Assembly (NCBI RefSeq): GCF_036345255.1
Contig: NZ_CP107783.1
Coordinates: 1,860,001 to 1,924,000, forward strand
Origin: Streptomyces sp. NBC_00569
GTDB taxonomy: Bacteria > Actinomycetota > Actinomycetes > Streptomycetales > Streptomycetaceae
Reading direction: 5' to 3'
DNA length: 64,000 bases
This document shows, one piece after another, positions 2,811-64,000 of the stretch. The first letter of the stretch is position 1, and the number at the start of each line of letters is the position of its first letter. Position numbers and translations under genes: made by a program. Below the pieces are notes generated by a model, which was not told the origin of the DNA, did not search any database, and saw only the letters and a list, made by a program, of their open reading frames with translations.

Positions 2811-2859
2811 CAGCCACCTGCCCATTCTCTGTCTCCCGCTGTGCCCGAGGGGTGAAGTG

Positions 2860-45320: not shown

Positions 45321-45443
45321 CACCTCGGGGCGCGCCCGGGCCTCTCGTGATCAGCCGGGGTGACGACAAGCCGACTCCCCGTAGGGTGCCAAAACTACTT
45401 CACCGCGGCTGACCTTGAGCGATGCGCCAAGCCACGGGCTGGG

Positions 45444-45828: not shown

Positions 45829-45874
45829 TGGTGCCCCCGGCAGGATTCGAATCTGCGACACCCGCTTTAGGAGT
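45829..45874 (-). other. 3' part of tRNA-Arg-like sequence (probable attachment-site scar)
   Basis: On the minus strand: an anticodon-loop-like CTCCTAA (anticodon CCU), a T-arm-like GCAGATTCGAATCCTGC, then an acceptor-like end GGGGGCACCA. The 5' half of a tRNA does not follow upstream, and the T stem has one A/C mismatch, so this is not an intact gene. Integrases recreate exactly such 3' fragments when they insert into tRNA genes. Confidence 0.65.
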
Positions 45875-46428: not shown

Positions 46429-47661
46429 TCAACTCACCACTCTCCCCCGCTTCGATCCCGTCCGCCGTCGACCCACACACTGTGGAGCGGGCCAGGGTGT
46501 CCTGCCAGGACCTGGGACGAGGGGTTTTACGACGGCCGGGACGGCGACGCCGGCCGCCGCGTCACAGGAGATCACCGAGACCAGGTCGCGCCGCCCGCCG
46601 ACGGCCCGCGAGATCGCCGCGACCTCGAGGAGCGCGCTGCCCAGCTCGGCGTCGCTCACCGAGCCGGAGGTGTCGATGACGACGCAGACGCGGGGCGGCG
46701 TACGGCGAAGGCTCGGCAGCACCACTCCAGGGACGCTTGCCGAGCGGCGGGACGGGCGCCGGTAGGTGTGGTTCTCCCCCACTCCGGGCGCACTCGCCGC
46801 CGAGCGGACTGCCGCGCCCAGCAACTGCCGCCACGGCTGCGGTGGTTGGAACGCCTCGTCGGCCCAGCGCCGCCACCCTTCCGGCGCGTCGCCGGGCCGG
46901 CCCTTGATGCCCTCAGCGACCCGGAAGCGAACCGCGTCTCGCTGCTGGCGGGTGAGTCCGTTCGCCCCGTCGGGCCCCAGCTCCCACGGCCGGTCGTGCC
47001 CGTCGGCACCACTGCCGCAGTCGAGCCAGGCCAATTCCGCGGCGAGCCCGGACATCGACGCCGTCCGCAGGTATTCCTCCATCAGCAGGCCGTCGGGCAG
47101 TCGCAGCAGCGACGGCACGACCGCCCCGAAGGGCTGCGGCAGTCCGTCACCGTAGATGTCGTCGTTGATCTCGAAGTCGGCGGCGATGTTCCGACGCAGC
47201 CTCCCCCAGCCTTCGGCCGGGGGGACCCCCATCTCGCTTCGCTCGCCCGGCCCGGACTCCTCATGCTCCCGCGCGTACCGCTCGCCGCGCCCGTGATGGT
47301 CACGGAGCAGATGGGAGACCTCGTGCACCCAGACGCCCGCCAGCTCCTCCAGCGGTGTGCGGTCCACGAATCCGGGCGACACGTAGCAGCGCCAGTGCGC
47401 GTCGACCGCCATCGTCGGCACCGCACGGTCCTCCACCACATGCAGCGCGAAGAGCGCGTCGGCCAGGTAGGGGCGGACCTTCACCGCGTGCAGCCGTGCG
47501 GCCAGCAACTTCTCCCAGTCCAGACGTAGTTTGTGCCGGTCGCCAGACCCTCCGTGGCCGTCCGGTCGCTCCGGCGGTGTCGCCCGCACCGCACTCGGGG
47601 GCGCGGGCGGGGACATGGGGCGCAGCGGCGGGCGTGGTCCCGGGCGCTTCGCGGCAGCCAT
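46429..47661 (-). CDS. DUF2201/VWA-like putative metallopeptidase, damaged C-terminus
   Basis: About 410 residues from ATG 47661 (earlier in-frame codons belong to another remnant). N-terminal part: LAARLHAVKVRPYLADALFA, HWRCYVSPGFVDRTPLEELA, HEVSH (an HExxH zinc motif), NIAADFEINDD. C-terminal part: a VWA-like fold with CVVIDTSGSVSDAELGSAL and VGGRRDLVSVISCDAA. The usual following segment with GGGGTDLR and the long C-terminus is missing; the protein jumps to a short GRTPWPAPQCV and an unnatural tail. A palindromic repeat is inserted within the coding sequence at 47198-47246. Such proteins normally partner a MoxR-type ATPase, absent here. Possibly non-functional. Confidence 0.65.
   Translation of the reverse strand: MAAAKRPGPRPPLRPMSPPAPPSAVRATPPERPDGHGGSGDRHKLRLDWEKLLAARLHAVKVRPYLADALFALHVVEDRAVPTMAVDAHWRCYVSPGFVDRTPLEELAGVWVHEVSHLLRDHHGRGERYAREHEESGPGERSEMGVPPAEGWGRLRRNIAADFEINDDIYGDGLPQPFGAVVPSLLRLPDGLLMEEYLRTASMSGLAAELAWLDCGSGADGHDRPWELGPDGANGLTRQQRDAVRFRVAEGIKGRPGDAPEGWRRWADEAFQPPQPWRQLLGAAVRSAASAPGVGENHTYRRPSRRSASVPGVVLPSLRRTPPRVCVVIDTSGSVSDAELGSALLEVAAISRAVGGRRDLVSVISCDAAAGVAVPAVVKPLVPGPGRTPWPAPQCVGRRRTGSKRGRVVS
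47198..47246. repeat. Dispersed palindromic repeat inside DUF2201 gene
   Basis: CTCCCCCAGCCTTCGGCCGG and GGGGACCCCCATCTCGCTTC are the two halves of a palindromic element scattered through streptomycete genomes. It adds residues GVPPAEGWG in frame between GERSEM and RLRRNIAAD, which are adjacent in normal relatives. Confidence 0.6.
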
Positions 47662-47689
47662 CGCCGCTCGCACGAGCGGGCACGGGCGC

Positions 47690-47815
47690 GGTCCGGGCCC
47701 CCACCACACTGTCCGTAGCCAAGTTGAGCTCTTCCTCAAGAGCCCCAACGGCCTCCGCCGTCGACGCATCGAAGACGCCGTCGTTGTCTACGGGGTGGCC
47801 GTGCACGGCAAGCAG
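47690..47815 (-). pseudogene. Peptidoglycan-binding-domain remnant
   Basis: The minus-strand frame reads GHPVDNDGVFDASTAEAVGA then LEEELNLATDSVVGART, the repeat pattern of PG_binding_1 domains (DGVFGPxTExAVxxFQ...LxxDGVVGxxT). Both sides diverge. It is a fragment of a secreted cell-wall protein. Confidence 0.55.
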
Positions 47816-48330: not shown

Positions 48331-48816
48331 GTGGACACGCTGACGCTCTTGCTGCTGGGCGCGGCGGGTGGGTCGTTGCGGGCTCTGGTGGATTTCTACA
48401 ACCAAACGATGGAGTGGCGAACCGCTCGCCGAAGGCATCGCCAAGAGAACCCCTCCGGCGGAGCCACCGAGGTGCCATCGTTCCGGGACTTTGTCGATCC
48501 ATGGCCAGATGGCCTGGCAGCAGCCTTTCATACCGCGCTTGGCGCTGGCGCCGCTGCGATGCTCGGCAGTACCGGACAGATTGATGGTGCGTACGCGGCC
48601 ATCGCGGTGGGGATCTCAGCACCCGCCCTACTGGCCCAGATCGGACAAGTACAAAGCGTGAGCGACGCTGTCGCCGGCCCGCCTGCACCCGACTCTCCAC
48701 CTTCACCAGTGCATAGAACTGAAGGTTCCCTCGATGACAGGCCGGATCAGTCGCCCTCCGGGGCAGGCCCCCATCGCACGCCGGAGCCTGGTCCTGGACG
48801 GCAGGAGGCGGTGTGA
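48331..48816 (+). CDS. Small membrane protein coupled to HtpX-like protease
   Basis: A 161-residue protein starting at GTG 48331. It has a hydrophobic N-terminus (TLTLLLLGAAGGSLRALVDF) and a second hydrophobic region (AAAFHTALGAGAAAML ... AIAVGISAPALLAQIG), so probably two to three membrane passes, and a Pro/Ser/Asp-rich disordered C-terminal tail. No family recognised. The stop overlaps the GTG of the downstream HtpX-like gene by 4 bp, implying that the two proteins are made together and may work together at the membrane. Confidence 0.6.
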   Translation: MDTLTLLLLGAAGGSLRALVDFYNQTMEWRTARRRHRQENPSGGATEVPSFRDFVDPWPDGLAAAFHTALGAGAAAMLGSTGQIDGAYAAIAVGISAPALLAQIGQVQSVSDAVAGPPAPDSPPSPVHRTEGSLDDRPDQSPSGAGPHRTPEPGPGRQEAV

Positions 48817-49973
48817 AATCCGGGAACTTTGGTCGCAGAGCCCTATCAACAGCCCTTGGACTCGGCAAACGTCATCGTGTCTCGCCCACGCGTGGCCAAC
48901 TTCGCGATCACTACAGTCTGTCGCGTCGCGTCATTGCGGCCATGCTGAGCGTCACCCTCCCCGCTCCGCAAGGCGACAGGAGAGCTATCGCAGCAGGTAC
49001 AGGTGCGCTCAGACAACAAGCGGACGCAGGCGCGGAGGGCACGGCCACCCGGTGGCCTCACCAGCGATGGCGTGCCCAGCGCAATGCATTGAAGACCGTG
49101 ATGCTCCTCGGTGGCCTATTCGCGCTGGCCACCGCGATCGGGAGCACGTTCGGTCACGCGGGCATCATCGTGGGCGCCGTCGCCGCGCTGGGTACCGGCA
49201 TTTACGTTTACTGGAACAGCGGCAAACTGGCGCTTCGCGCCATGCGGGCTCGCCCCGTCGGCGAGTTCGAGGCGCCGCACCTGTACCGCATGGTGCGCGA
49301 GATCTCGGCCATTGCGCATCAACCCATGCCGCGCATCTACATCTCACCGACCGAGGCCCCCAATGCCTTCGCCACTGGTCGCGATCCCGGTCACGCCGCC
49401 GTCTGTTTTACGGAAGGAATCCTGCAGATCCTTGATGAACGTGAGCTGCGCGGCGTCATCGGGCATGAACTCAGCCATGTATACAACCGAGACATCCTGA
49501 CATCCACGGTTTTGGGCGGTCTCGCCTCGGCGGTGATGTTCCTGCCCATCCTCGGCCTGATCCCCATAGGGCGCTCGAAGGACGGTGACGCCACGACGGG
49601 AATATTCGGAGTACTTCTCGCAATCTTGCTCGGTCCTATCGCATACGCCATGATCCGGCTGTCCATCGGTCGGTACCGGGAGTACGAGGCGGACGTAGCA
49701 GGTGCCCATGTGACGGGCGACCCACTTGCACTCGCATCCGCGCTTCGCAAACTCCAAGCCGGTGCCCGCGCGCTGCCTCTCCCCCCGGAGCCTCGCCTGG
49801 AGGCCATGAGCCACATGCTGATCACGTACCCATTCCGGCCAGACGACGTTCTGTCCAGGCTTTTCTCCACCCACCCACCGATGGCCGAGCGCCTCAGCCG
49901 ACTTGAACGAATGGCCGGTGCGAACAACTCCAAGGGGCAGCAAGTCACCGGGGAACGGCCCCCGGATCTCTGA
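48813..49973 (+). CDS. htpX: HtpX-like M48 membrane metalloprotease with N-terminal extension
   Basis: A 386-residue protein. From about residue 90 it matches HtpX: NALKTVMLLGGLFALATAIG, YVYWNSGKLALRAMRARPVG, MPRIYISPTEAPNAFATGRD, AAVCFTEGILQILDERELRG, the zinc motif H218-E219-L-S-H222 (IGHELSHVYNRD), two membrane helices (LGGLASAVMFLPILGLIP; GVLLAILLGPIAYAMIRLS) and REYEADVAGA with the third ligand Glu. The usual length is about 290 residues; the 90 extra N-terminal residues are charged and unlike the family. HtpX degrades misfolded membrane proteins with its active site in the cytoplasm. The start overlaps the preceding gene. Confidence 0.85.
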   Translation: MKSGNFGRRALSTALGLGKRHRVSPTRGQLRDHYSLSRRVIAAMLSVTLPAPQGDRRAIAAGTGALRQQADAGAEGTATRWPHQRWRAQRNALKTVMLLGGLFALATAIGSTFGHAGIIVGAVAALGTGIYVYWNSGKLALRAMRARPVGEFEAPHLYRMVREISAIAHQPMPRIYISPTEAPNAFATGRDPGHAAVCFTEGILQILDERELRGVIGHELSHVYNRDILTSTVLGGLASAVMFLPILGLIPIGRSKDGDATTGIFGVLLAILLGPIAYAMIRLSIGRYREYEADVAGAHVTGDPLALASALRKLQAGARALPLPPEPRLEAMSHMLITYPFRPDDVLSRLFSTHPPMAERLSRLERMAGANNSKGQQVTGERPPDL

Positions 49974-50387
49974 CCACCCGGACTTGCAGTGCGTGGGCGA
50001 CGCACCCCAAGGCGGCGGGTGCTCCTCCTGCCACCGAAGGGCCGCCCCGGCAAGAACAGAGCATCCTGCTTTGGCAGTCAGCTGGTCGGCACCCTCAAGC
50101 CGTGGGACGACCCGGAGCGCACCCATCTGTAGATCGCTGCGCGTGGATCGCCTGCGGCGTCCCAGTCCACAGAGTGCGCAAGCCCAATGTTCCGGCGATG
50201 CACTGCGGCTCCGGAGGCCAGGACCAGTGCTGAGAGCCCTGTCTGGGCACGCTTGCGGGGAGCAGCATCAGGGGCGCTGAGGAAGTTCGTGCGCCGATGA
50301 ACCCGGCAACTCCCCCACCGCAGGTAGAAAGTTCGGCGCGCCCGCACGCCGATGCTTGTGTCTGATGCGCACAAAACACAGAACTAG
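49974..50387. other. Intergenic region before the XRE/DptF-like operon
   Basis: 414 bp with no gene I can support. The last 50 bp before 50388 are A-rich (CGCACAAAACACAGAACTAG) and probably hold the promoter of the four-gene operon. The start has no ribosome binding site, so the mRNA could be leaderless. Confidence 0.3.
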
Positions 50388-51230
50388 ATGGAGATCTCGC
50401 AGGGAGCCTGGCACGGTTTGTCCATGGCTGGTGATGAGCGGGCCGAGTCGCCCGCTGAGACTTTCGCACGCGCCCTGGTGGCGATTCGCACAGCAGCCGG
50501 CTTGACACGCGCGCAGCTGGCGGAAGCCGCGCGGATCGACCGGAGCGTGCTGTCACGGCTGGAGAGCGGGCGTTACGCGCACAGGCTCAGTACTCAGAGC
50601 CTTGAGCGCCTGAGTGCAGCACTCTCCTGCGGGGACGCGCTGTATGCGGCTGGAGGATTTCCGCTGCCGGAAGTCCGGGAGCTGACTGGTGATGCGCGCC
50701 TTGGCCTCGCGTTCGCTGATATTCCAGCTGCCCGCAAGGCTCTGTCGCGGCTGCACATGACCCAGGTCGCGCTGTCTGCCGTTGCTCCTGCGCTCACCGG
50801 TGAGGAACCGGGGGTGGATGTGGGCCGTCTGTGGGGCGCTGTCCGGAGGCAGGCGGGACTTGACCCGGCGCCGGCTCCCGCCTCCGGTCCGGGCAGCCGG
50901 GAGGGAAGCGTGGCCGGCCGGCGTTTCCTCATCGCTCACGGGTCGGCCCACATCCTGTTGCAGACCACATGCCACTGGCCATACGGCACTGACGCTGAGG
51001 TTGAAGCGAGCGAGCTGGCCGGCATCCTTCTGACTCCGCCGGGCCCCCTCACTCAGGCGGTGCGTGCTGCGTTCAGGTCCGGGATAGATCCGTGGGACCC
51101 GGACACCGGCGGGCTCGTGGCAGCGGTGTCTGACTCATTACTGATCCCTGGATGGCTGGCCGCGTACAGGCTGGCTGACTTCAACGGCCTGCACCTGCAG
51201 CTAATCCCGGACGACGAGGAGAACATGTGA
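50388..51230 (+). CDS. XRE regulator with degenerate IrrE/ImmA-type domain
   Basis: A 280-residue protein. Residues 25-85 are a Cro/C1 HTH (ALVAIRTAAGLTRAQLAEAA, IDRSVLSRLESGRYAHRLS). Residues 175-225 match the core of an ImmA/IrrE (M78) domain: RRFLIAHGSAHILLQ aligns with the usual RFTLAHEIGHxLL, and EVEASELAGILLTPP with ExEAxxFAxxLLMP. The HExxH glutamate is replaced by Gly (H184-G-S-A-H188), so zinc might still be bound but proteolysis is unlikely. ATG 50424 is an alternative start. Its stop overlaps the GTG of the DptF-like gene, so it is the probable regulator or sensor of this operon. Confidence 0.8.
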   Translation: MEISQGAWHGLSMAGDERAESPAETFARALVAIRTAAGLTRAQLAEAARIDRSVLSRLESGRYAHRLSTQSLERLSAALSCGDALYAAGGFPLPEVRELTGDARLGLAFADIPAARKALSRLHMTQVALSAVAPALTGEEPGVDVGRLWGAVRRQAGLDPAPAPASGPGSREGSVAGRRFLIAHGSAHILLQTTCHWPYGTDAEVEASELAGILLTPPGPLTQAVRAAFRSGIDPWDPDTGGLVAAVSDSLLIPGWLAAYRLADFNGLHLQLIPDDEENM

Positions 51231-52984
51231 GTACAGCCCCAGCCCCCTTCGACAGCTCGCTGCCAAGTCCTTTGGAGGCCCTGGTGGCACTGCGCTCCTC
51301 GGGAGAGGAGAGCGTGGTCGCCACTGACCGGATCTCACCGCGCCAACAGGCCATGTATGTGTCAACTGACCTCGACGAGGCACTCGTCGCCCATGTATCC
51401 GAGAACACCGGGCTCCGGCTCGTGTTGCTGACGGGCAGTGCGGGCGGCGGCAAGAGCGCGCTGATCCGCCAATTGCAGAGCAGGCTGCCGCAGGGGACTA
51501 TCAGCCGTGTCGTGGAGGATGCGACGCATGCGGACAGCCCGAGCGAGCGGCAGACCGAGCGACTGGCCGGAGTTCTCGCCGGATTCAGCAACGGCGTTCC
51601 GCCTGCCGGGGATCTCACAGTCATCGCGGCTAATACCGGTCTGCTGCTGGAGCTGCACCGTGAGTTCACCGAGCGGGGGCAGCCCGCCCTGGCGGACGTG
51701 ATCGCCTATGCCCTTCACGTTCTCGGTGTTCCCGGCAAGCGGAGTCTCACGGAGGCCCGCAGGGAAGAGCTTGGCGCCGCTGTGCTGGTCGTCGACCTTG
51801 ACCAGCGTCCGACTTCCGGCGGCGAGGGGCGGCTGTTGCGGCGGATGCTGGCTGGCTTCCACCCTGATCTGCCCGGAGGGGTGCTGGCGGGCGCGGCTCG
51901 CTGCGGGACGTGCGCGGTCAAGGCATGGTGTGCACCGCGGACCAATGCCGAGCTGCTTGCTGACCCTCAGATTGGCGCGGCACTGGACGAGGCTGTCGAA
52001 CAGATCGCCATGCGGCGGGGGCGTGACGTCGCTCCCCGGCAACTGTGGGACGGCGTCAGTGAACTCGCCCTCGGCGGAATCAGCGCTGAAGGGGATCCCT
52101 GCAATTCTGTGGCCGGCCTTGCAGGTGAGAAGGACGGAGCCGCTGTCTGGCAGGCGCTGCTCCCTAACGGAGTGTTCGGCTGGGCGCAGGGCGCTCTGGC
52201 CAGGGAGATCCAGGCACTTGATCCGTCGTTCCGAGCGAGCAGCGAAACCCACACGGTCATTGCTTCGGCCGGCATCCTGCCCGCGGAGGACGCAAGGATG
52301 CTGGAGGACCTTCTGGGCTCCGCGGACGGCGAGGCGCGGCAAGCCGTTACGACCGCGGCGTCTGCTCTGGCGGCAAGCTCAGCTGGCGAGGGTGCCCGTG
52401 GCCTTGTGCGCGCCCACTGGCTCATGGGACGGCTGCCCCTCGGGCCAGTGGTGCCCGAGGAGTTCAAGGAGGCGGTGTCTATGCAGGATGATGCTCGGGA
52501 GCAGGTGATCCAGGTGGTGTCCGACGGGCTGGTGCAGGCTTTCGGACAGACGGCGGAGCGCAGGAGCTATCTCCCGACGGAAAGCCTGGGAGAGAGCCGC
52601 GATGCCCGTGTCCTGGTACAGGTCGATGTCGATGAGCACGTGGAAGTCCTGCCGCAGCGCGCTCAGCACTTCAATCGGCAAGGGTCCCGTGTGGTCGGGC
52701 TGCGCCCGCTGACAGCCCGTCTGAAGATCGGCAAGTCAGTGATCGATCTGGACCTTCCTCTCTACCGGCTCCTGCAGATGGCAGCCGAGGGCGCCCTTCC
52801 CGCGACCGTGGACATCGAGAGATTTCATGCGCTGCGCTATGCCGCCGAACGGCTGGGCAGGCAGCAGGCTGATAACACCGATCTGCCGCTGCTCGTCACT
52901 GACGATGCCCGCGGCACAGCTTTCGTCGTGACGCCCCGCCATCGCCGCGGCCAGGAGCAGTTGAAGATTGAGAAGGTGGCCTGA
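51227..52984 (+). CDS. DptF-like P-loop ATPase
   Basis: A 585-residue protein. The Walker A motif is LTGSAGGGKSALIR (Lys76), followed by VVEDATHADSPSERQTERLA and DLTVIAANTGLLLELHREF, which match the order and wording of DptF, the ATPase of phosphorothioate-dependent restriction (DATHSxxP...; INIGML). VLVVDLDQR (Asp190) is a likely Walker B. Cys226, Cys229 and Cys235 (RCGTCAVKAWC) form a metal-binding or Fe-S-like cluster in the same place as in DptF proteins. It is coupled by GTGA overlap to the regulator upstream and separated by 2 bp from the next gene. It probably powers or gates the large FtsK-like protein. Confidence 0.68.
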   Translation: MSTAPAPFDSSLPSPLEALVALRSSGEESVVATDRISPRQQAMYVSTDLDEALVAHVSENTGLRLVLLTGSAGGGKSALIRQLQSRLPQGTISRVVEDATHADSPSERQTERLAGVLAGFSNGVPPAGDLTVIAANTGLLLELHREFTERGQPALADVIAYALHVLGVPGKRSLTEARREELGAAVLVVDLDQRPTSGGEGRLLRRMLAGFHPDLPGGVLAGAARCGTCAVKAWCAPRTNAELLADPQIGAALDEAVEQIAMRRGRDVAPRQLWDGVSELALGGISAEGDPCNSVAGLAGEKDGAAVWQALLPNGVFGWAQGALAREIQALDPSFRASSETHTVIASAGILPAEDARMLEDLLGSADGEARQAVTTAASALAASSAGEGARGLVRAHWLMGRLPLGPVVPEEFKEAVSMQDDAREQVIQVVSDGLVQAFGQTAERRSYLPTESLGESRDARVLVQVDVDEHVEVLPQRAQHFNRQGSRVVGLRPLTARLKIGKSVIDLDLPLYRLLQMAAEGALPATVDIERFHALRYAAERLGRQQADNTDLPLLVTDDARGTAFVVTPRHRRGQEQLKIEKVA

Positions 52985-52986
52985 GA

Positions 52987-54666
52987 ATGACCAGTGATCC
53001 CAGGGACCTCAAGGCGCTGGCGGACCAGCTGCCCGGTGCAGCTGAGGGCGTTTCGCTGGACGGGGACCGGATCTGCGTGCGCGGTGCTCCGGGCATGGCC
53101 GTACCCCAGGACCCCAAAGGGTGGATGCTGCACGAGGCCCCGGCCGTGTGGCCAAACACTCCGCACGGTGAGGCCCGCCCCACTCTGTTGTTCGGCATCG
53201 TAAAGGACGCGGGACCGTCTGGCGGGGTGCAGCCTCTGGACAGTGTCCTGCGTAACGCTCTCGAGAGCGATCTGCCCGGGGATTCCCCCCAGCAGCGGCA
53301 TGCTCTCGCGGCCGCTATGCGGTCAAAGTTCTGGACCACTGCTACCGGAGGCGGGACGAAGAACTCCAAGTTCTATCTGCTCCCGCTCCATGCACAACTG
53401 CCGCTGTCCTTCCGGCAGGAGAAGGCGGTTGGCGGCAAGACAGCTTTCCGCTACAAGATGTTCCGCGGCACCCTCCTGCCATTTCTGCTGAGCGGGGCCA
53501 CCGGAGAAGTCGACCGGGAACTGCTGGACGAGGTGCTGGGAATATTCAGTGACGAGAGGGACCTGACCCGGCTGGACAGGAAGGTCCTGGAGATCGCTTC
53601 GGTAATCGCCCCGCGGGTTTCCAGTCTTGACGCGGAGACCCTGCTCAGCAGTTCCCGCGAGGTCCTCAATCGTCTTGAAGAAGCCGGTGGTCCGTTCTGC
53701 ACGCCCTCGCTTGACGAGTTCCGCCGTGACCTCAAGCAAGTACTGACTCTCGACTTGCCCCGGCGCGACCTCATTCACCAGCTGACGCTGCTGCTGGCAC
53801 TGCACCTGACCACCCGCCTCTACCGGGCCGGTCTTGTCCTGAGTCTGCGGCTGGACCGCTGCGTTGCGCTCTTTGACGGCGGCAAGGACGCTGATCCCGC
53901 CGGTGCCTCCTGCGCTGTCCAGTGCTGCGGATCACCTGGAGCATGCGATCTCTCTGCAAAAATGCGTTTCCGTGTCGGCTCGGGGTCATTCAGATCTGTC
54001 AGGCTCACTGATCCCTGTGTGACCAGCTATCGCGATCTCACCAGCAATTACCTGCTGCCTCTGCCTGTAACGATCAGCACGGCCAACTTCGCGCGGCGGG
54101 CGCTTGAGGCAGCCGGCGGACCGGTCCTGGCACCCGCTGATCTGGAGGGCCTGTACGCGTCCCTGGCCGCGGACTCCCGACTGCGCCTGCGCTTCGATGC
54201 TGTCGTGCGGCTCCTGGCCGTCTGCAAGCGGTATCAGACGCGACAGAAGAGCACCATGGGCGCTCAGGTACAGACCGGGCTTCCCGGGCTGCACGCGCTG
54301 AGGCTGGCGCTGCTGGAGTCCCGCAGGACCACCATGCGTCACGAAGGGCGCGACATCGTGCACCAGCTGGCCAAGGAGGTGCGTACCGGCCGCCTCATCG
54401 CCAGCAATGGCAATGCCGCCACGTTCTTCGAAGTAGACGAGGACATGCTTCACCTGCTCGTGCGCCTGGTTTGCGGAAGCGAACTGCTGTCCTATGGACG
54501 CTTCCTCGAAGGGCTGCGCCGGTACGGTCTCGCACCGCAGAACCAGGCGGAGGAGCAGCTTCTGCAGTCGGCGCTGTCCCGTCTGGGGATGCTCCGGCGC
54601 TACTCCGACGCAGGCGAAAGCGCATACGTCCACCACTCCGACGCAAGTAACGAGGAAGCCCTGTGA
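52987..54666 (+). CDS. Cysteine-cluster protein in the DptG position
   Basis: A 559-residue protein with no catalytic motif I recognise. It is mostly helical, with a central cysteine group: Cys292, Cys309, Cys313, Cys314, Cys320 and Cys344 (SCAVQCCGSPGACDL), suitable for zinc or an Fe-S cluster. Other segments are TKNSKFYLLPLHAQLPLSFR and RGTLLPFLLSG near the N-terminus and TGLPGLHALRLALLESRRT near the C-terminus. Its place between a DptF-like ATPase and a very large FtsK-like protein, and its size, make DptG the best guess, but this rests on synteny. It overlaps the next gene by 4 bp. Confidence 0.5.
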   Translation: MTSDPRDLKALADQLPGAAEGVSLDGDRICVRGAPGMAVPQDPKGWMLHEAPAVWPNTPHGEARPTLLFGIVKDAGPSGGVQPLDSVLRNALESDLPGDSPQQRHALAAAMRSKFWTTATGGGTKNSKFYLLPLHAQLPLSFRQEKAVGGKTAFRYKMFRGTLLPFLLSGATGEVDRELLDEVLGIFSDERDLTRLDRKVLEIASVIAPRVSSLDAETLLSSSREVLNRLEEAGGPFCTPSLDEFRRDLKQVLTLDLPRRDLIHQLTLLLALHLTTRLYRAGLVLSLRLDRCVALFDGGKDADPAGASCAVQCCGSPGACDLSAKMRFRVGSGSFRSVRLTDPCVTSYRDLTSNYLLPLPVTISTANFARRALEAAGGPVLAPADLEGLYASLAADSRLRLRFDAVVRLLAVCKRYQTRQKSTMGAQVQTGLPGLHALRLALLESRRTTMRHEGRDIVHQLAKEVRTGRLIASNGNAATFFEVDEDMLHLLVRLVCGSELLSYGRFLEGLRRYGLAPQNQAEEQLLQSALSRLGMLRRYSDAGESAYVHHSDASNEEAL

Positions 54667-57600
54667 CCGGCCCCCAGGACGCCACCGCCGCCGCCGCGAT
54701 CGCCTCCGCGCTGACCGCCGCAGCCGCGGATAGCACTGCTCACCGCCGCCTATACCTGCGCAGCCACTACGCCGTGACGCCGACGGCCGTGTTCGCCGCC
54801 CTCGAAGCCGGCCTGAGCCAGCACGTGACGGTCGGTGCAGGCCGCACACTCGCAGCCCTTCCTGCAAGCAACGCGCTGCTCATTCCCTACCTCGTCGATG
54901 ACGGGCGTTCCGGCGGGAACCGGGGCCTTCGTGGCTATGCCGGTACCCTGCGCACCGACTTCACTGAACATGCTGCTCCGGGGACACCCCATGTCCTGCT
55001 AGTGCTCGATGAGAACCCCTTTGAGACGGTCCTGACCGCCGCGCAAGACGCAGCCGGACTTCCCCAGCTGCAGTGGCGGCAGTTGGTCCAACAGATCGCG
55101 CAGGGGGCGTCAGGCCCGGCAGCACCACTTGTGGCAACTGTTGCAAATGACCTGGCCGTCATCCCCGAAGCACTGCGCGAGGGGGCCCTGCTTGACAGGT
55201 TCGCCGCCTTCACCCAAGCCCCCTGGCACAGCACCGAGGAAGCCGGCTCTGCGCTCGCCGGCCTGGGACCGTATCTGGCGGACGAGGCACCCACTGCCTC
55301 CCGGCTGCAGCAGTCCCGCGAGTGGCGCCACTGGCTGCAGACATGGTCCCGCCCCGACCGGGACCTCGCAGCCGAGCTCGTGCGCTACGCCGGCGAACGG
55401 ACGCCCGGAGTGGAGAAGGTGCTCGCCGCCCGCGGCGTGAGCGGGCTGGACTGGAACGGCTTCACACTCGGCGACCTTCCCTCCCGGCCCGACAAGTCGA
55501 AAGCCGCTCTCGTAGCCCCGGCACGACTGCACGGAGTGCGGTCTTTTCTCCCGCGCGGGAGCTCGGTAGCCGCATGGCTTGGCCTGGACGATGTCTCCGT
55601 GGCCGTCAGCTTCACCGGCAACCCGAAAGGCACGGCAGCATCGGCAGGTGTCCGGTGGGGCGGCGGTGAGATGGAGCCGGCCTCCGTGGACGAGGCGGAA
55701 CTCGTCGTGCGTCTGCATGTCCCCGGGGCGGGCAGTACTGGCTGGCATTTCGGTCAACTGCAGCTGGGCCGCGGGCAGTTGCTGGACCTCGCTGTCTTCC
55801 GGGGCGAGGGCACCTGGTTCCCGGTCGAGCAGGGCCTGGTGATCGACCGGCTCAGCGGGGCATTCGTCGCCACCGACCCGCCTGGCATCGCAGCAGTCGG
55901 CCCGGACGGCGTTGTCCTGGGCAACGCCCGCCCGGAAACCGACCTCTCCGAGAGTGATCCCGGTGTGCGCACCCAGGTAACGGCTGAGTATGCGGGAACC
56001 GTGCAGCCCATCCCCCTGCTTTCCGACATCGCTCCTGAGGCAGAGGACCCGTCAGAACAGCCTGAGGGCCCAGAACTCACCGGGGAAACCGGCGACGGCG
56101 ATGAAGAGGAAGCGGACCCCGGGGAAGGCCCTCTGCAGGGCAGGGCTCCCACAGCAGCTCATGCGCTGCTGGCCTTCGCTGCCGCCCGGGCGCGCAGCAA
56201 CCTGGGCATCGAGACGGGAAGCCTGCGTTTCACGGGGGGCGGCTCCCCCAACTTCAGCCGAGAGAAAGGGGGTCTGTTCCAGGAGCTGGAAAGCCAGTCC
56301 CTGCACCGTGACCTCAACGGGCTGGCCCTTGAGCAGGCGGTGCTGCAGCAGCCCGGAATTCTGGCCTCCGCAGTCTCCCGTGAAGGCCGTACCCCCAAGC
56401 TGGTTCCCGACCGCGTCCTGGAAGCCCTCAGTCTCAGTTCGCTCGACGCCACCCTGGTGCAGGCGTTCGAACATGCCCGTGCCGAATTCTTCGCCAGCCT
56501 CACCGAGCAGGGATCCGTCCACGCGCTGCTCTGTGGCACAGGCAGGGACGAGGCCCGCTCCTACGTCGATGCCTACCAGGAACTCCTGTTGTCTGTAGCC
56601 ATAACGGAGCGCTACCAGCCGGAGTACAACCGCCTGCTCCTGTGTGATCTGGTGACCGACGAATCCACTCAGCAGTGCTGGTTCGCTCCCACTAATCCGG
56701 TCACCGTCGCCTGGGCACTTGAACTGGCCGACACCGCAGAGCGATGGGCGCGGGAGGGTGCACAGCTCCCTTCCCGCGACCTGGACGCCCTGACACCCGC
56801 CTTCCTTCTGCCGCTGCTGCACCATGCGCAGGGCTGGTGGGAAACCGATCCGCGCTCACCGCGTCTGTGGCGCCGCTACCGGCCACTTGGCTCCTCTCTG
56901 GCCCTGGGCGGCGGGGACCCGCGCACCATCACACGCCAGCTGGAGAAGTTCCTTTCCGTCTTCGGCCACTACAAGGACCCCCGCCAGCGCCTTGCCGTCG
57001 CGCTCCATGAACCCGGCGACGGCGGCAGCGCGGCACAGGCCCTGCGCACGTTCTATGCCGCGGAGCGCATGCCCGGTGCCGACCAGTACCGGCCCGGCCT
57101 GGACATCACCGTATACACGGGTGACGGGCGGGTACCGGAGAAGCTCGCGAAGCTCGTTGCGCCGGACAACGATGCCGACGTCGACAAACTCGTGCGCAGC
57201 CGTACCAGCATGAGATGCGTGCCCAGAGAACAGGAGCCTGAATTTGCGCACCTGTCCTTCGTCTTCCGCTCACCGGCCCAGCGTGAGCCGCGTTCCGCGA
57301 AACTGACCGAGCGCGCGTCCACAGCCTGGATCAGCGGGCTCGCCGCCGCGCCGGGCCGCACTGCCCGCCGGGGCGCCAACGAGATGGCATTCGCCTCTGG
57401 GCTGTTCATCGGTCCCGACAGCGGACCGCTCGGCCCGCTGCTCACCCGCTGCCTCGAACTCGTCGGCGGGCAGCCGCACGGGCAGTTGGCACCAGGCATC
57501 ACTCAGGTAACCACCACCGTCATCGAGCCGGACGCCATGGCCGGCATCTATTCGGCCAGCGTGTGGACCACGCACGCCGACCGGCTTCTTGGACCGGAAG

Positions 57601-59795
57601 CCTTCACACCGCAGCCGGGCCATGCACCGAGCATCGTCGACTTCGACGACCGCAGCAGTTACTGGCAGGCCGGGCTGAACAGCATCACCGTGACCGAACG
57701 GGTGGAGCCCTACCGCACAGCGCTCACCCGTGCGTTCGCGCCAGCAGCACAGCTCGAAGACACAGCTCTGGCCGGGTTGATCGACCTCGGGAACGCGGTC
57801 AGCGGCCGCTGGAACATGGACCTGCTTTCCCTGCCCCTCAACAAAGTGCGCGAGCGGGTTGGCGTACTGGCTGCTATCGCCGCCCTCAAAGATCTGGACA
57901 GCGCATTCGCTCCTGTCGACAGCCCCGGCGATCTCGGCGGTGTGCTGCTGTCCCTCGAAGAACTGTTCCGGCTCCTCAAAGCCAGCGGAGTGAAACGGCC
58001 CTCCGTCCGTCTGTGCGACGACCTGCTCTACCTGCGCGTGCATGAAACCGGCGACGGTCGGATCGACCTGCGCGGGCGCCTGATCGAAGTCAAGTTCGCC
58101 ACCGCGGGGCGCCCCGACCTGGCCATAGCACGCGGCGAGATCGAGGCAACCCGCACCTGGCTCCAGCAGGTCTACAACCACCCCAGTGCTGCCCGGCCCT
58201 TCCGGCTGCGGGACCTGGCGGAGTTCATCCGCACCGGCGCTGCACGCAACGCAAGTTTCGGCCTGCCCGGACTGGCACCCACAGCGGTCGAGAAGATCGC
58301 CGAAGCTGTGGCATCCGGCCACTTCGGCCTGGCCCTGTCGTTCACCAGCGCAGACAAGTGGCTGCACGGGGACGTAATCAGCCTGGAACTGGACAACCCG
58401 GAAATGCCCCACCGTCAGAGCCTGCCCGGCGGCACCCACTCCCCGATGGGTTACGTCCGGCTCGGCGCGCCCGCACTGCAGCAGCTCGCACAGGGCACAC
58501 CGCTGCGCCGCTCCCAGCAGTGGAACCGCATCAGTTTCCCTCCTCAGCCCGACGACACCACCCCGCCAGAAGTCGGCACGCCCCACAGCAGCGAGCCGCC
58601 CCCGGGACCTGCCCCCCAAGGCAGCGAAAGCCCCGAAACGGACGGCTCCGCTGCTGACAATCCAGACAGCATGCCGCCTGCCGCCAGCCCGCTCTCAATA
58701 GGCCTGGCCCGCGAGGTCGAGACCAAGGCCGCCGAACTCGACGACGCCGCAGCCAAGTACGAGCTGAACCTGGCGCCGTTCTCCACTGGCGCCGCCCAGA
58801 TCGGCCCATCCGTTATCCGGTACCGGACCCGCCTCCTCGGCAAACAGACCATCGCAGGAGTGCGCAGCAAAGCCCTGGACCTAGGAAGGGAAATCGGGGT
58901 CGCGGAAGGCGTGCTGATCGACCAGGAGCCCTACTACCTCACCGTCGATGTCCCCCGCCGTGAACGCGTCGTGGTCCCTCTGGCCGGTGCGCTTCACGAA
59001 CTGCAGGCGGTCCGCGAACCCGGAGCACTGCCTTTCCTTCTCGGCGTAGCTCCCAGCGGCGAGGTCCGTGTGGCTGACCTCGCCCGTCTGCCTCACCTGC
59101 TGGTTGCCGGGGCGACCGGCTCCGGCAAAAGCGTCCTGCTGCGGGGACTTCTGTGCTGCCTCTCCCGCGAACGGAGCCCGCAGCAGCTCAGGGTCCTGAT
59201 CGTGGACCCGAAACAGGTCGACTTCATGCCCTTCGATGACCTCCCGCATCTAGTCGACCATCGCATCGTGACCGACCCGGCCGAAGCAATCACCGTTCTG
59301 GCCCAGACACTTGAGGACGAGATCGCCTGGCGTCGCACCACACTGAAAGAGGCGGGAGCGACCAGCGCCCTAGAGTTCTATGAAATGGGCAACTCGCTGG
59401 AAGACCTGCCTCAGATGGTGGTGCTCGTAGACGAGTTCGCGGACCTCGCTGCCAGCCTCGGCAGGCGCGAACGCCAGACCTTCATGACTCTCATTCAGCG
59501 GTACGGGCAGCTGACACGGGCATTCGGCATCTACCTCGTACTGGCGACGCAGCGTCCCAGCGTCCAGGTCATCACCGGGGACATCAAAGCCAACCTGACT
59601 GCGCGCGTCGCCATGAAGGTGCAGTCCGCCGTGGACAGCACGACCATCCTCGGGCGCGGCGGAGCAGAGGCGCTGCGCGACCGGGGGGACCTCCTGTTCG
59701 ACCACGGCGGCGTCACCGAGCGGCTGCAGGCGTACTACACCACCCTGGACGATGTGCGGGCCGCAACCGCCCAGTGGCGGGACCAGGCGCACTGA
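54663..59795 (+). CDS. Giant DptH-like FtsK/HerA translocase with PD-(D/E)XK-like motif
   Basis: A 1,710-residue protein from GTG 54663. The C-terminal 350 residues are an FtsK/SpoIIIE-type motor: Walker A GATGSGKSVLLR (Lys1489), LRVLIVDPKQVDFMPFDDL, Walker B MVVLVDEFADL (Asp1590, Glu1591), YGQLTRAFGIYLVLATQRPS and ANLTARVAMKVQS. At residues 1115-1175 LCDDLLYLRV ... RLIEVKFATA carries Asp1119/Asp1120 and Glu1142-x-Lys1144, the spacing of a PD-(D/E)XK nuclease. A Pro/Ser-rich linker (about 1285-1345) separates the two. The first 1,000 residues are unassigned. Size, order and motor match DptH. It ends the operon before a hairpin. Confidence 0.7.
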   Translation: MTGPQDATAAAAIASALTAAAADSTAHRRLYLRSHYAVTPTAVFAALEAGLSQHVTVGAGRTLAALPASNALLIPYLVDDGRSGGNRGLRGYAGTLRTDFTEHAAPGTPHVLLVLDENPFETVLTAAQDAAGLPQLQWRQLVQQIAQGASGPAAPLVATVANDLAVIPEALREGALLDRFAAFTQAPWHSTEEAGSALAGLGPYLADEAPTASRLQQSREWRHWLQTWSRPDRDLAAELVRYAGERTPGVEKVLAARGVSGLDWNGFTLGDLPSRPDKSKAALVAPARLHGVRSFLPRGSSVAAWLGLDDVSVAVSFTGNPKGTAASAGVRWGGGEMEPASVDEAELVVRLHVPGAGSTGWHFGQLQLGRGQLLDLAVFRGEGTWFPVEQGLVIDRLSGAFVATDPPGIAAVGPDGVVLGNARPETDLSESDPGVRTQVTAEYAGTVQPIPLLSDIAPEAEDPSEQPEGPELTGETGDGDEEEADPGEGPLQGRAPTAAHALLAFAAARARSNLGIETGSLRFTGGGSPNFSREKGGLFQELESQSLHRDLNGLALEQAVLQQPGILASAVSREGRTPKLVPDRVLEALSLSSLDATLVQAFEHARAEFFASLTEQGSVHALLCGTGRDEARSYVDAYQELLLSVAITERYQPEYNRLLLCDLVTDESTQQCWFAPTNPVTVAWALELADTAERWAREGAQLPSRDLDALTPAFLLPLLHHAQGWWETDPRSPRLWRRYRPLGSSLALGGGDPRTITRQLEKFLSVFGHYKDPRQRLAVALHEPGDGGSAAQALRTFYAAERMPGADQYRPGLDITVYTGDGRVPEKLAKLVAPDNDADVDKLVRSRTSMRCVPREQEPEFAHLSFVFRSPAQREPRSAKLTERASTAWISGLAAAPGRTARRGANEMAFASGLFIGPDSGPLGPLLTRCLELVGGQPHGQLAPGITQVTTTVIEPDAMAGIYSASVWTTHADRLLGPEAFTPQPGHAPSIVDFDDRSSYWQAGLNSITVTERVEPYRTALTRAFAPAAQLEDTALAGLIDLGNAVSGRWNMDLLSLPLNKVRERVGVLAAIAALKDLDSAFAPVDSPGDLGGVLLSLEELFRLLKASGVKRPSVRLCDDLLYLRVHETGDGRIDLRGRLIEVKFATAGRPDLAIARGEIEATRTWLQQVYNHPSAARPFRLRDLAEFIRTGAARNASFGLPGLAPTAVEKIAEAVASGHFGLALSFTSADKWLHGDVISLELDNPEMPHRQSLPGGTHSPMGYVRLGAPALQQLAQGTPLRRSQQWNRISFPPQPDDTTPPEVGTPHSSEPPPGPAPQGSESPETDGSAADNPDSMPPAASPLSIGLAREVETKAAELDDAAAKYELNLAPFSTGAAQIGPSVIRYRTRLLGKQTIAGVRSKALDLGREIGVAEGVLIDQEPYYLTVDVPRRERVVVPLAGALHELQAVREPGALPFLLGVAPSGEVRVADLARLPHLLVAGATGSGKSVLLRGLLCCLSRERSPQQLRVLIVDPKQVDFMPFDDLPHLVDHRIVTDPAEAITVLAQTLEDEIAWRRTTLKEAGATSALEFYEMGNSLEDLPQMVVLVDEFADLAASLGRRERQTFMTLIQRYGQLTRAFGIYLVLATQRPSVQVITGDIKANLTARVAMKVQSAVDSTTILGRGGAEALRDRGDLLFDHGGVTERLQAYYTTLDDVRAATAQWRDQAH

Positions 59796-60088: not shown

Positions 60089-61369
60089 TCAGGCTTTTCC
60101 GTCGCTGCCGCGCAGGGAAGACATGACCAGTCGCCCGTACCGGGTGGTCAGGACTGCCGCAGTGGCGGCGACAGACAGACCGACTCCGACGAGCAGGTGT
60201 GCCAAGGAGTGGTCGTCAACGACCTGAAGGATGCCGAGCGCGGTGCCGAGCGGCAGGCCGAGAACGGTGAGGACCCCGAGAGCCCCGCTGATCTGCTGAC
60301 TCTCCTGTGTCTGCACGAGCCTGCTGTAGTCGGCGGCTTCGGCGAGGATCTCGTGGAAGCGGGCAGGCAGTCGGTGCTGGTTCTGGAAGGCGAGAAGCAG
60401 ATCGTTTGCCGCGCCGTGAGCAGTGAGGTGCTGCCGCCAGTAGGTGCTGCGGAAGACGGCGATGTTTCTCTCCAAGGTGGCGACGCGGCGTGCCAGTCGT
60501 GAGGAGGTGAACACTTCGGAGAGTTCGTCGGTGAGCTCGTCGACGTGATCTCGCTGCAGCGCGCCGAGGAGCAGCGCGTCGAGATAGACGGTACGAGAGT
60601 GCAGTGCGCCGAACTCGAAGAAATCGCCACTGCCGGTGTCGGCACGATGGCCAAGGAAGGCAGCTCCCTGCCGCAGGACGAGGGCGCTCCAGTCCGCCGA
60701 AATCCGCACAACGTCCTTGAGCTGTTCGGCCGCGGTTTCCGGCGGGAGGGGGAAGTCTTCCGGCGTGGAGCGTGACGCCAATCGCCACAGCCATCGGTCC
60801 GCGGTTGCAGGGAGCTCCCCTTCGAGGCCACTTCGGAGAGCGGGGGCGTCCTGTGCTGTTGGAGCCATGAAGGCAATGGAATAGGGCCGGGCGATGGCGA
60901 ACGGTGCGCTGAGGCTCCGTACGTCGGCGATGCCCGCGAGAAGTCCGGCCGGGTCGAACGGCCCGACTAATGGTTCATCGGCGGAGTTCGGCTGCCGTCC
61001 GGCCAGGGCCCGCAGTACGGGCAGTAGGGGTCTTTCCACCGTGAAGTGCAAGACGGCGAGGGCGTGTTCGGGACGGCGGACCGTGGATGCGCGCAGGAGT
61101 TCCATGCCGAGTAGATGCAGCCCGTCATGCTTGATGTCCAGCGGGAGGTACCAGCGGCAGGGCCGCCCGGGAGTCCCGTAGAGGGCGCGCGCGGAGGCCG
61201 GAGCGAAGTAGGTGGATCGGGTCTCGGCGTCGGTGCGGCGGCTGCCCAGCTCAAACGGAAAGGGGCCCTCGGGCCAGGCGGGAACACGCAGCAGCCGTAC
61301 GGGCAGGACAACCGTCAGTTCCTGGCGCGCCCCGGTGACATCGTCCAGCTGCACAACACTGCCGGTCAC
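60089..61369 (-). CDS. CorA-like membrane protein of the NACHT operon
   Basis: A 426-residue protein starting at GTG 61369, which overlaps the previous stop (GTGA). A long soluble N-terminal part (beta-strands VVLPVRLLRVPAW; acidic and helical region LDALLLGALQRDHVDELTDE, LSEVFTSSRLARRVATLERN) leads to two C-terminal membrane helices (LGVLTVLGLPLGTALGILQV; HLLVGVGLSVAATAAVL) and a short basic tail. This shape, a large cytoplasmic domain with a long helix and two terminal helices, is that of CorA-type channels, but the GMN selectivity motif is absent. It may be a membrane effector triggered by the NACHT protein. Confidence 0.6.
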   Translation of the reverse strand: MTGSVVQLDDVTGARQELTVVLPVRLLRVPAWPEGPFPFELGSRRTDAETRSTYFAPASARALYGTPGRPCRWYLPLDIKHDGLHLLGMELLRASTVRRPEHALAVLHFTVERPLLPVLRALAGRQPNSADEPLVGPFDPAGLLAGIADVRSLSAPFAIARPYSIAFMAPTAQDAPALRSGLEGELPATADRWLWRLASRSTPEDFPLPPETAAEQLKDVVRISADWSALVLRQGAAFLGHRADTGSGDFFEFGALHSRTVYLDALLLGALQRDHVDELTDELSEVFTSSRLARRVATLERNIAVFRSTYWRQHLTAHGAANDLLLAFQNQHRLPARFHEILAEAADYSRLVQTQESQQISGALGVLTVLGLPLGTALGILQVVDDHSLAHLLVGVGLSVAATAAVLTTRYGRLVMSSLRGSDGKA

Positions 61370-61632
61370 CGGTAGTACTCGGCTGGGTCGGGCTGGTCGA
61401 GGCGGATGACGAACTCCGCCCGGTCGGGGCTCTCGGCGTGGACATGGAAGCGGACGCGTTCGCCGGTGCGGACGGTCCGGAATCCCTCGGTCACAATCTG
61501 CCGGTAGTCGAAGCCGTAGTACCGCTCGTCCTCGTCGTCCCGGACGATGTACAACCCGGCGGACCCGCCGAGTCCTCCCCCGCTGGGGCGCCTGTCGACG
61601 ATAGTTCCGTGGCGCGCTCCGCCGCCCGTCAT
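61366..61632 (-). CDS. Cold-shock-fold (OB) small protein
   Basis: An 88-residue protein from ATG 61632, which overlaps the stop of the large upstream gene (ATGA). HGTIVDRRPSGG ... AGLYIVRDDEDERYYGFDYR, IVTEGFRTVRTGERVRFHV and DRAEFVIRLDQPD follow the five-strand layout of a cold-shock domain, with the aromatic pair YYGFDYR where CSD proteins have FFHxSDI. It could bind RNA or ssDNA. Its stop overlaps the start of the CorA-like gene, so all three genes are translated as a unit. Confidence 0.62.
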   Translation of the reverse strand: MTGGGARHGTIVDRRPSGGGLGGSAGLYIVRDDEDERYYGFDYRQIVTEGFRTVRTGERVRFHVHAESPDRAEFVIRLDQPDPAEYYR

Positions 61633-64000
61633 GCGGTCGTCTCCTCTGCTTCGGAGCTGTCGGTCATGTCCTGCACACAACGGAAGCCGACAGCGTTGCT
61701 TCCACCCCGCTTGCGGTAGATGCCCTTGGTGCTGGTCTGCACCGCCCGCATGGGGTTGTCGTAGCTGCCGCCGCAGATGACAGCCTCACTGGTGTCGGCG
61801 AGGCTGGTAGAGGTCCATTCCCAGCAGTTGCCCACCATGTCGCGTACGCCGAACGGCGAGTGGTTGCCGGTGCGTTCGCCGTCGGGCGTCACCCCGGCAT
61901 GGCGCAGTGCGTCGCCGGCGAAGTCCCGGTACCACGCCTGGTACGTCACGACAGGTCGGCCGACCCATGAGTCGGCGCAGTTGACGTGGCGTTCGTCGGG
62001 CATGTCCCCCCAGGGGAACAGCCGCCCGTCCGTGCCGCGTGCGGCAGCCTCCCATTCGATGACCGTCGGCAGACGTTTACCCTCGAACGAGGCGAAAGCG
62101 TGGGCGCTCCACCAGCTGACGCAGATCGCCGGGTGGGCGTCGTAGTGCGGGTTCTCGTAGTAGTCGGGCCGTCGCAGCCGGTCGGTCCAGGGGTGGTGTG
62201 TGACGTGGGCGGGCTGGTCGGGGTGGTCCCACCGTGAAGTACCGTCCGCGCCAAGGGCGTCGAGGAAGCGGCGATAGCGTGCGACAGTCACGGCATGGCG
62301 GTCGAAACGTACAGGGCGCGGGACCCGCCGCATCAGCAGCCGTTCGGCCGGGCCGACCAGGTACGTCCCTGCGCGTAGCACGCAGTCGTCCGTCTTAGGA
62401 CTGCCGGACATCTGGGCAAGGAAGGCACGCACTTGCTCGGTGAGGAAGGCGCCGCCGGGAATGTCTGCTGCAGTGTCACGGTGAACTGCCTCGGTAAGGT
62501 ACCGGGCCGCCAGCAGCTCCTGGTACGCCGTGTGTACGAAGGCGACGTGATCCGGACCGGCGGGCCGCAGTAGCGGGGAGAGGACACACGTGTCGAGACC
62601 GAAACTCCCGTCCGTGAAGGCGTCGGCCCCCAGTAGCCGGTGCACGTCGAGGAGGGAGAAGACCGTTCGATCGGTGAGGAAGGCCTGTCCGAACGCGGCG
62701 GGTAACCGTTCTTCCAGACCAGGCCGCCCGCGCTCGGCCAAGGCCCGCGTGATGTGCGTGCCGAGGACGTCTGCGAGCGGCTGACCTGACGGCAGCGCGA
62801 GTTCGGCGGCCAGGTGCCTTTCCAGGGGTGTGGCGCCGGGCTCGGCCAGGCGCACCACATGGAAGTGCGGAACGCGCGCCGGGTCGACGCCGTTCGCGTA
62901 CATCTGCTCGACCAATTGCTCGGAACGCCCCGCGCCGCTGTCCAGCAGCTGACGCACTTGTGGCGAGTCAGCAAGGAAAGACACGCGGGAACTCATGATC
63001 ACCGCCGACTCGGCGGACAGCACGGCGGCGAGGTCGGTGAAGAGCCGCAGGAACCCGGCCGCGCTTGGTTCCTCGACCCCTTCGTCGACGGCGTCGAGCA
63101 CGCACAGTGCGACCCCGGAACGGATCAGGTAGAGAAAGAGGTCGTAGGCACGAGAGCGGTCGGTTGTCATGGCCGGCGCCAGCAGGCGCGCCGCGTACTC
63201 GGAGAACGGCTCGTCCTTCGGTTTGAGACCGAGGTCGAAGTAGAAACGGAAGCGGCGGATGCCCGGGCTCAGGGCGAGAGAGCGCAGAAGGGTGCTCTTC
63301 CCGCTGCCCGGACGACCGGTGACCAGAACGTTCGCACTCCCGCATGCCAAGCGCGTCAACAGCTCAGCCGCATCTTCGGACTGCACCACCTTCGACCCGC
63401 CGGTGTACGGGTCGGTGGTCATGACCGCCGCCGTCACGGCCATGCGTGGTTCGGCAGGGGCCGGGGTGGCCAGAGCGGCAAGGTGGGCTTCGAGATTGAC
63501 GATGGTGTCGACAAAGCCGTCGTAACGCACGATCCGGAAATCCACACCCAGCATCTGATGGAGCGGCCCCGTCGCCGTGCCGCCGCCGACATCGTCCAAG
63601 ATGACGAACCGGGTGAGCTTGGGCAGCCGGGTGCGCAGCAACTCACCCCCGCTGGAGGCAAGAACGGTACCCAGATCGTCCGCGTCCTTGGAGAGCATCA
63701 GCTCCACGTACTCCAGGCGCATCCCCGACTCACGGCAGAACAGCAAGTACACCGTGTCGGAGCTCAGGACGAACCGCTTGGCCTGGCGATAGCCGAGGGT
63801 GACGTACAGCCCGGCCAAAAACTCGCACCTGCGTGCCACCTCGAGCGCCATGTCCGGCTCACCACCGAGAAGCGCCGCGCTTCCGGTGTCGGTGAACCAG
63901 ACCAGTACGTCGACGAGCCGGCGGACCGCCAGCAGCCCGTCCTCGTCGCTGATGTCGTACCCGTCGTGTGTGGATCGGTTGCGCAGCCGCCGGATGTCTT
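61629..64000 (-). CDS. HEPN-NACHT-FGE-sulfatase conflict protein, 5' end outside window
   Basis: At least 789 residues; the frame is still open at 64000. N-terminal visible part: DIRRLRNRSTHDGYDISDED contains R-N-x-x-x-H (63966-63983), the active-site signature of HEPN RNases. Then an alpha/beta region (RFVLSSDTVYLLFC, LTRFVILDDVGGGTA), a NACHT-type STAND ATPase with Walker A NVLVTGRPGSGKSTLLR and Walker B VALCVLDAVDEG, a sensor arginine region (AVIMSSRVSFLAD), and a C-terminal formylglycine-generating-enzyme-like domain (RLPTVIEWEAAARGTDGRLF, GNCWEWTSTS, CGGSYDNPMRA, GFRCVQD). Such fusions are predicted defence sensors: the FGE/lectin-like end may bind the trigger and the HEPN end cut RNA. 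Confidence 0.78.
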   Translation of the reverse strand, partial: DIRRLRNRSTHDGYDISDEDGLLAVRRLVDVLVWFTDTGSAALLGGEPDMALEVARRCEFLAGLYVTLGYRQAKRFVLSSDTVYLLFCRESGMRLEYVELMLSKDADDLGTVLASSGGELLRTRLPKLTRFVILDDVGGGTATGPLHQMLGVDFRIVRYDGFVDTIVNLEAHLAALATPAPAEPRMAVTAAVMTTDPYTGGSKVVQSEDAAELLTRLACGSANVLVTGRPGSGKSTLLRSLALSPGIRRFRFYFDLGLKPKDEPFSEYAARLLAPAMTTDRSRAYDLFLYLIRSGVALCVLDAVDEGVEEPSAAGFLRLFTDLAAVLSAESAVIMSSRVSFLADSPQVRQLLDSGAGRSEQLVEQMYANGVDPARVPHFHVVRLAEPGATPLERHLAAELALPSGQPLADVLGTHITRALAERGRPGLEERLPAAFGQAFLTDRTVFSLLDVHRLLGADAFTDGSFGLDTCVLSPLLRPAGPDHVAFVHTAYQELLAARYLTEAVHRDTAADIPGGAFLTEQVRAFLAQMSGSPKTDDCVLRAGTYLVGPAERLLMRRVPRPVRFDRHAVTVARYRRFLDALGADGTSRWDHPDQPAHVTHHPWTDRLRRPDYYENPHYDAHPAICVSWWSAHAFASFEGKRLPTVIEWEAAARGTDGRLFPWGDMPDERHVNCADSWVGRPVVTYQAWYRDFAGDALRHAGVTPDGERTGNHSPFGVRDMVGNCWEWTSTSLADTSEAVICGGSYDNPMRAVQTSTKGIYRKRGGSNAVGFRCVQDMTDSSEAEETTA

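Follow-up and report, generated by a model that had tools for sequence, protein, structure and literature searches.

We analysed a 64,000-nucleotide stretch of Streptomyces sp. NBC_00569 DNA (contig NZ_CP107783.1, positions 1,860,001 to 1,924,000), called the window below. The host genome is a single contig of 10,324,489 bases with a completeness of 100. Near its right end the window carries a four-gene operon, in which a regulator gene precedes three genes, F, G and H, related to dptFGH (dndFGH), the restriction partners of the dnd genes for DNA phosphorothioation (PT). The strongest feature of this locus is the regulator: its gene is a conserved member of the operon, the protein carries a pseudo-IrrE domain and a conserved palindrome lies upstream of the gene. 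The features, in window coordinates, are as follows.

50357-50380, no strand: candidate operator, a 24-bp palindrome 44-67 bases upstream of the likely regulator start at 50424
50388-59795, forward strand: four-gene operon (regulator, F, G, H)
50388-51230, forward strand: regulator, 280 amino acids, XRE helix-turn-helix and IrrE-like domain without the catalytic Glu
51227-52984, forward strand: F, 585 amino acids, DptF/DndF-like P-loop protein
51434-51457, forward strand: Walker A motif of F, GSAGGGKS
52987-54666, forward strand: G, 559 amino acids, DptG/DndG-like DNA-binding subunit
54663-59795, forward strand: H, 1710 amino acids, DndH-like body and FtsK-like motor
58020-58094, forward strand: PD-(D/E)xK nuclease residues D1120, E1142 and K1144 of H, retained in 9/9 H proteins
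58680-59792, forward strand: FtsK-like motor of H, residues 1340-1710 (FtsK_SpoIIIE, 124.9 bits)

A preliminary description of this DNA had reported four genes that overlap or nearly touch, and the coordinates of the open frames confirm a 4-bp GTGA overlap between the regulator and F, a 2-bp gap between F and G, and another 4-bp GTGA overlap between G and H. Comparison with orthologues suggests 50424, not 50388, as the start of the regulator. We observed the order regulator-F-G-H in 8/8 loci, namely the window and L007-L013, which come from Streptomyces spiralis, two Actinomadura, Streptomyces sp. G44 (L010), a Frankiaceae metagenome-assembled genome (MAG), Amycolatopsis orientalis and Actinoplanes rectilineatus; in each, F, G and H lie in one operon in the DndFGH order. 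The ratio of nonsynonymous to synonymous substitution rates (dN/dS) across the four genes was 0.11-0.15 between the window and L007 and 0.11-0.20 over two pairs of loci (0.14-0.16 for the regulator), values that point to purifying selection. As the order recurs in L007-L013 and dN/dS is low, the arrangement is more than chance.

Profile comparisons of F, G and H, together with the DndG fold present in G, bore out the earlier assignment of the three proteins to the DptFGH relatives. F aligned with an annotated DptF over 570 columns (E 5.6e-33) and matched DndF in PADLOC (6.7e-12). Its Walker A GSAGGGKS, D98, N136 and Cys226, 229, 235 and 292 are conserved in 9/9 proteins; D98 and N136 align with DptF, and N136 would occupy the Walker B position. 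F has an intact Walker A, an Asn that by the alignment replaces the Walker B Asp and an acidic end of strand 2, the features by which PMC10853773 recognizes DndF. A profile search of the PDB with F gave no useful match. The 'Cys cluster' noticed earlier in G corresponds to C238, C309, C320 and C344, which are invariant in 25/25 sequences. Scoring against the three NCBIfam models named in the preliminary description gave a divided result: G passed the DptG profile TIGR03236 (23.8 bits, cut-off 20), while F fell under the cut-off of the DptF profile TIGR03238 (38.1 bits, cut-off 50) and H far under that of the DptH profile TIGR03237 (31.5 bits, cut-off 620.65).

Residues 540-1290 of H align with the product of the gene that comes third in a dptF-dptG locus over 674 columns (E 1.6e-41), and the PADLOC matches of the H body were to DndH models only. 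The E-V-K of the nuclease motif aligns with the same motif in a Priestia protein. The motor matched SspH in PADLOC (1.1e-59) and the solved FtsK structure 2ius, including the part preceding the ATPase core, and its Walker A GATGSGKS is present in 9/9. H has the composition that defines DndH, a restriction endonuclease with active residues followed by a C-terminal HerA/FtsK ATPase. A profile search of the PDB with the middle of H gave no useful match, and the structure model of this part is of too low quality to assign domains firmly.

The preliminary description had placed a modified XRE/IrrE protein at the head of the operon, and this held. The regulator (P0001) scored above the Pfam cut-offs for HTH_31 and HTH_3, and in a profile comparison with solved structures its matches included DdrO, C.BclI and C.AhdI; we infer that it is a dimeric XRE repressor. 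Catalysis by IrrE peptidases involves an HExxH motif, and we take the His and Glu positions of the regulator to be those that serve in these peptidases. In 20/20 regulators the residue following the first His is never Glu (Ala in 14, Gly in 3, Val, Cys and Thr in 1 each). Both His and Cys195 are retained in all 20 and Glu204 in 19, the remaining sequence having a gap; the IrrE-like half retains the likely metal ligands. PADLOC gave weak matches to capH (8.5e-5) and to RmrA and similar models, the RmrA match spanning both halves of the protein.

We compared the 250 bp upstream of the regulator in the window, L007, L008 and L009, and found the palindrome to be the best shared 24-mer, at -67 to -70. 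Its identity to the window 24-mer is 20/24 in L007, 19/24 in L008 and 18/24 in L009, where the maxima of 40 shuffles were 18, 17 and 17, respectively. It is perfect in L009, is found in 4/4 loci of this subclade, and 50357-50380 is the sole site of its pattern in the window. The second subclade (L010-L013) has a different common palindrome: the L010 24-mer is matched at 22/24 in L011, 20/24 in L012 and 20/24 in L013 (shuffle maxima 18, 17 and 20).

We also looked for the modification partner. The absence of dnd modification genes nearby (50 kb), reported earlier, can be extended for dndC-type genes to the whole genome, in which the DndC model had 0 matches; in the genus this model was above cut-off in 6/199 genomes and reached E 0.001 in 13/199. 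PF01507 can detect DndC, because a genuine DndC protein of the genus scores 41.3 bits with it. In the host genome PF01507 hit two places, both adjoining sulfate-assimilation genes as read from their neighbours' sequences. In a survey of seven operon-bearing genomes, from which those of L013 and G802 were excluded, 15/17 PF01507 places are or adjoin sulfate-assimilation genes by the same kind of reading; the two others are a lone CysH-like frame (L056) and a short piece at a contig end (L061). SspD corresponds to DndC in the passages of PMC10853773, and PF01507 found no sspD-type gene in the host genome, in a search run without an SspD protein as control. A TIGR03237 search of the genome gave no match and shows nothing, since its controls matched nowhere either. 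The whole-genome check thus yielded no dndC- or sspD-type gene, and the known PT enzymes appear to be absent. The homologous loci likewise had no adjoining dnd genes in the stretches examined, so that dnd genes are not a constant neighbour of this family.

A fusion of an HhH-GPD domain and a C5 methylase adjoins H in L008, L009 and L011 (in L011 it shares the strand of H and follows it after about 50 bases). The three fusions are mutually 51-63% identical, whereas F, G and H of L009 and L011 are 37-42% identical. Among 342 genomes of one order the fusion occurs in 3, two of which have FGH (P 1.5e-4). The fusion (L009 16943-18832, L068, and L079 in G1064) is found with FGH operons and also with DISARM-type genes. 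A C5 methylase is present in all 7 operon genomes, and we dropped this as evidence of pairing with 5-methylcytosine, the background being 159/199.

On balance we favour reading the locus as an actinobacterial restriction operon of the DndFGH type that stands alone and carries its own switch. The sequence itself shows the gene content, the homology, the intact catalytic residues, purifying selection, the conserved regulator with its upstream palindrome and the lack of the known PT enzymes; repression, the signal, cutting and defence are deduced from these. In this model the regulator would bind the palindrome upstream of its own gene and keep the four-gene transcript low. The IrrE-like half would probably respond to an infection or DNA-damage signal with a change of shape and not with cleavage of a repressor; release by shape change would be required, as the peptidase centre looks dead. 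Once the complex is made, G would read DNA, F would serve as an NTP-dependent sensor or gate, and H would travel along invading double-stranded DNA by its FtsK-type motor and cut with the PD-(D/E)xK domain. The system would thereby act in defence against phages or plasmids, and expression control rather than a chemical self-mark would protect the host. In PMC8092258, unrestrained SspFGH harms cells that lack PT and is likened there to unrestrained DndFGH; F-G-H would accordingly need restraint in this host. A bolder form of this idea, which we hold only tentatively, dispenses with a self-mark altogether: the dead peptidase of a single-chain XRE/pseudo-IrrE controller would sense single-stranded DNA (ssDNA) or a metal or redox change and free the palindrome only during infection.

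Several observations weigh against the operon with a built-in switch. The Pfam Peptidase_M78 model scored 13.9 bits, under its cut-off of 22, and so the term 'IrrE-like' rests on the His/Cys/Glu pattern and the weak RmrA-type matches. The symmetry of the window palindrome is not significant alone (106/300 shuffles reach it), nor is it singly in L012 or L013, and the L013 match to L010 equals the shuffle maximum and so carries no significance on its own. In L070, the ninth locus from actinobacteria, the XRE gene is split: an XRE frame precedes F, the IrrE-like end lies in a different frame, and the corresponding place holds no palindrome. A promoter scan covering one promoter type found none. 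Finally, a C5 methylase lies beside the operon in 3/9 loci, and a purely expression-gated system would have no need of one.

This last point leads to the closest rival, in which the complex spares DNA carrying 5-methylcytosine and the methylase adjoins the operon, as the HhH-GPD/C5 fusion does in some relatives, or lies elsewhere. The position of the fusion next to H in three loci, its better conservation than that of F, G and H, and its co-occurrence with FGH in two of three carriers all speak for such pairing, as does a dptFGH locus adjoining Dam and a type II nuclease on a Priestia plasmid; we nevertheless regard it as rather unlikely. The regulator could instead be antitoxin-like, binding F, G or H and keeping the complex idle, with the palindrome as a secondary autoregulatory site only. 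RmrA is the antitoxin of RosmerTA, and the weak RmrA match over both regulator halves and the tight coupling to F would fit; the upstream palindrome, in two forms that track the regulator subclades, argues against this, and we consider it improbable.

The preliminary description had left a choice between modification encoded elsewhere and a stand-alone relative that recognises something else. Of the two, stand-alone action is favoured. Homology to PT-dependent restriction proteins would suit a PT-dependent system with its modification genes elsewhere in the genome, but we reject PT genes of the known enzyme type, as the DndC model had 0 matches and the PF01507 places (both in the host, 15/17 in the seven genomes) are assimilatory, which makes such a system very improbable. 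A PT enzyme of another, so far undescribed fold could still serve. Equally hard to credit is a decayed remnant without function. The family is rare (among 392 genus genomes, the host and two more carry it, one of these by a weak match), and tRNA-end relics and an integrase-like fragment lie beside the region; against decay stand the open frames, the intact Walker and nuclease residues, the order in 8/8 loci and the dN/dS of 0.11-0.20.

We compared the operon with systems described in the literature. Stand-alone DndFGH was proposed by Rakesh et al. 2024 (PMC10853773), according to whom DndFGH often occurs without PT genes; because this proposal is already in print, the finding is less surprising than the preliminary description held. 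The operon shares with DndFGH the three subunits in equal order, the DndG fold, the DndH-type body with its nuclease, the HerA/FtsK-type motor and the absence of modification genes. It differs in that its proteins are divergent, missing two of three NCBIfam cut-offs, and in that it begins with a dedicated XRE/pseudo-IrrE gene; the main text of PMC10853773, in the passages covered, does not mention XRE or IrrE. With SspABCD-SspFGH (PMC8092258) the operon has in common a module of three genes, one of them for a Walker A protein and the third for an FtsK-like protein, its H motor matching SspH; however, for F, G and the body of H the Dnd models gave better matches than the Ssp ones (DndF over SspF, DndG over SspG), and the host genome yielded no sspD-type gene.

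The regulator has its own parallels. CapH and CapP, like the window regulator, pair an HTH repressor with an IrrE-type peptidase function at the start of an immune operon, and the CapW and CapH+CapP controllers respond to ssDNA (PMC13373217); the window regulator is, in contrast, one chain, and its peptidase Glu is missing in 20/20. In Deinococcus, an XRE repressor, DdrO, is likewise linked to an IrrE domain, that of PprI/IrrE, and PprI is an ssDNA-binding protease (PMC10904395), whereas the window regulator is fused, lacks the catalytic Glu and gives no sign of repressor cleavage. C-proteins of restriction-modification systems and RptR (PMC12255303) are also operon-encoded regulators with a palindromic site, but they serve methylase-bearing systems; the window operon has no methylase and its regulator has an extra domain. 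We did not find a dedicated XRE/pseudo-IrrE regulator for DndFGH in the open-licence passages covered. The pairing with this regulator would be the new element, stand-alone DndFGH itself having been proposed before.

The family is thinly spread. Counting the host itself, G was found in 3/392 genomes of the genus, where one match was weak (E 3.7e-4), and in 2/394 of the class; in one order it was found in 4/345, again with a single weak match (1.8e-4). F was found in 5/100 relatives at E 0.001, the 4 besides its own being short weak matches. Eight loci lay among 90 pattern stretches of genome contigs, and 25 stretches of viral contigs yielded no confirmed locus. L014, a short contig of a proteobacterial MAG, carries F, then G and a portion of H, and gave no regulator match; its F (1021-3903) has a long N-terminal extension, kinase-like by eye. 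A plasmid search with G gave none and one with F gave one record. On the mobilizable Priestia megaterium plasmid NZ_CP026738.1 (L082 14452-23718) a dptF-dptG-DUF87 locus, with no dnd gene across the 31 kb displayed, adjoins a Dam-family methylase and an AlwI-family nuclease.

Around the operon we observed a gene converging on H (60089-61369, reverse strand), whose product has no Pfam match above cut-off and a weak PADLOC match (4.4e-10) to CorA-like proteins of type III CRISPR loci. Beyond it, 61629-63998 (reverse strand), open at the window end so that its N-terminal part lies outside, encodes a P-loop NTPase part (NACHT-like, under cut-offs) and an FGE-sulfatase domain above cut-off; this is the neighbour earlier called HEPN-NACHT. 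Two peptidase-like genes, DUF2201_N (46429-47769, reverse strand) and Peptidase_M48 (48813-49973, forward strand), lie shortly upstream of the operon. A tRNA 3'-end-like relic and an integrase-like fragment (45829-45872 and 45360-45629) lie 4.5 kb upstream, with similar relics on genome contig C1 at about 1856846 (49 kb left) and 2119905 (about 214 kb right, other strand). Judged by eye from the letters, these are likely integration scars; a tRNA search of the window found none.

How DndFGH systems without PT genes spare their host is the question to which this operon speaks. Expression control is one answer, and the conserved regulator and candidate operator make it cheaply testable. The marker-free form of the model, if true, would account for the tolerance of host cells to stand-alone DndFGH systems, and the regulator may add a dead-peptidase sensor fused to a repressor to the known controllers of immune operons.

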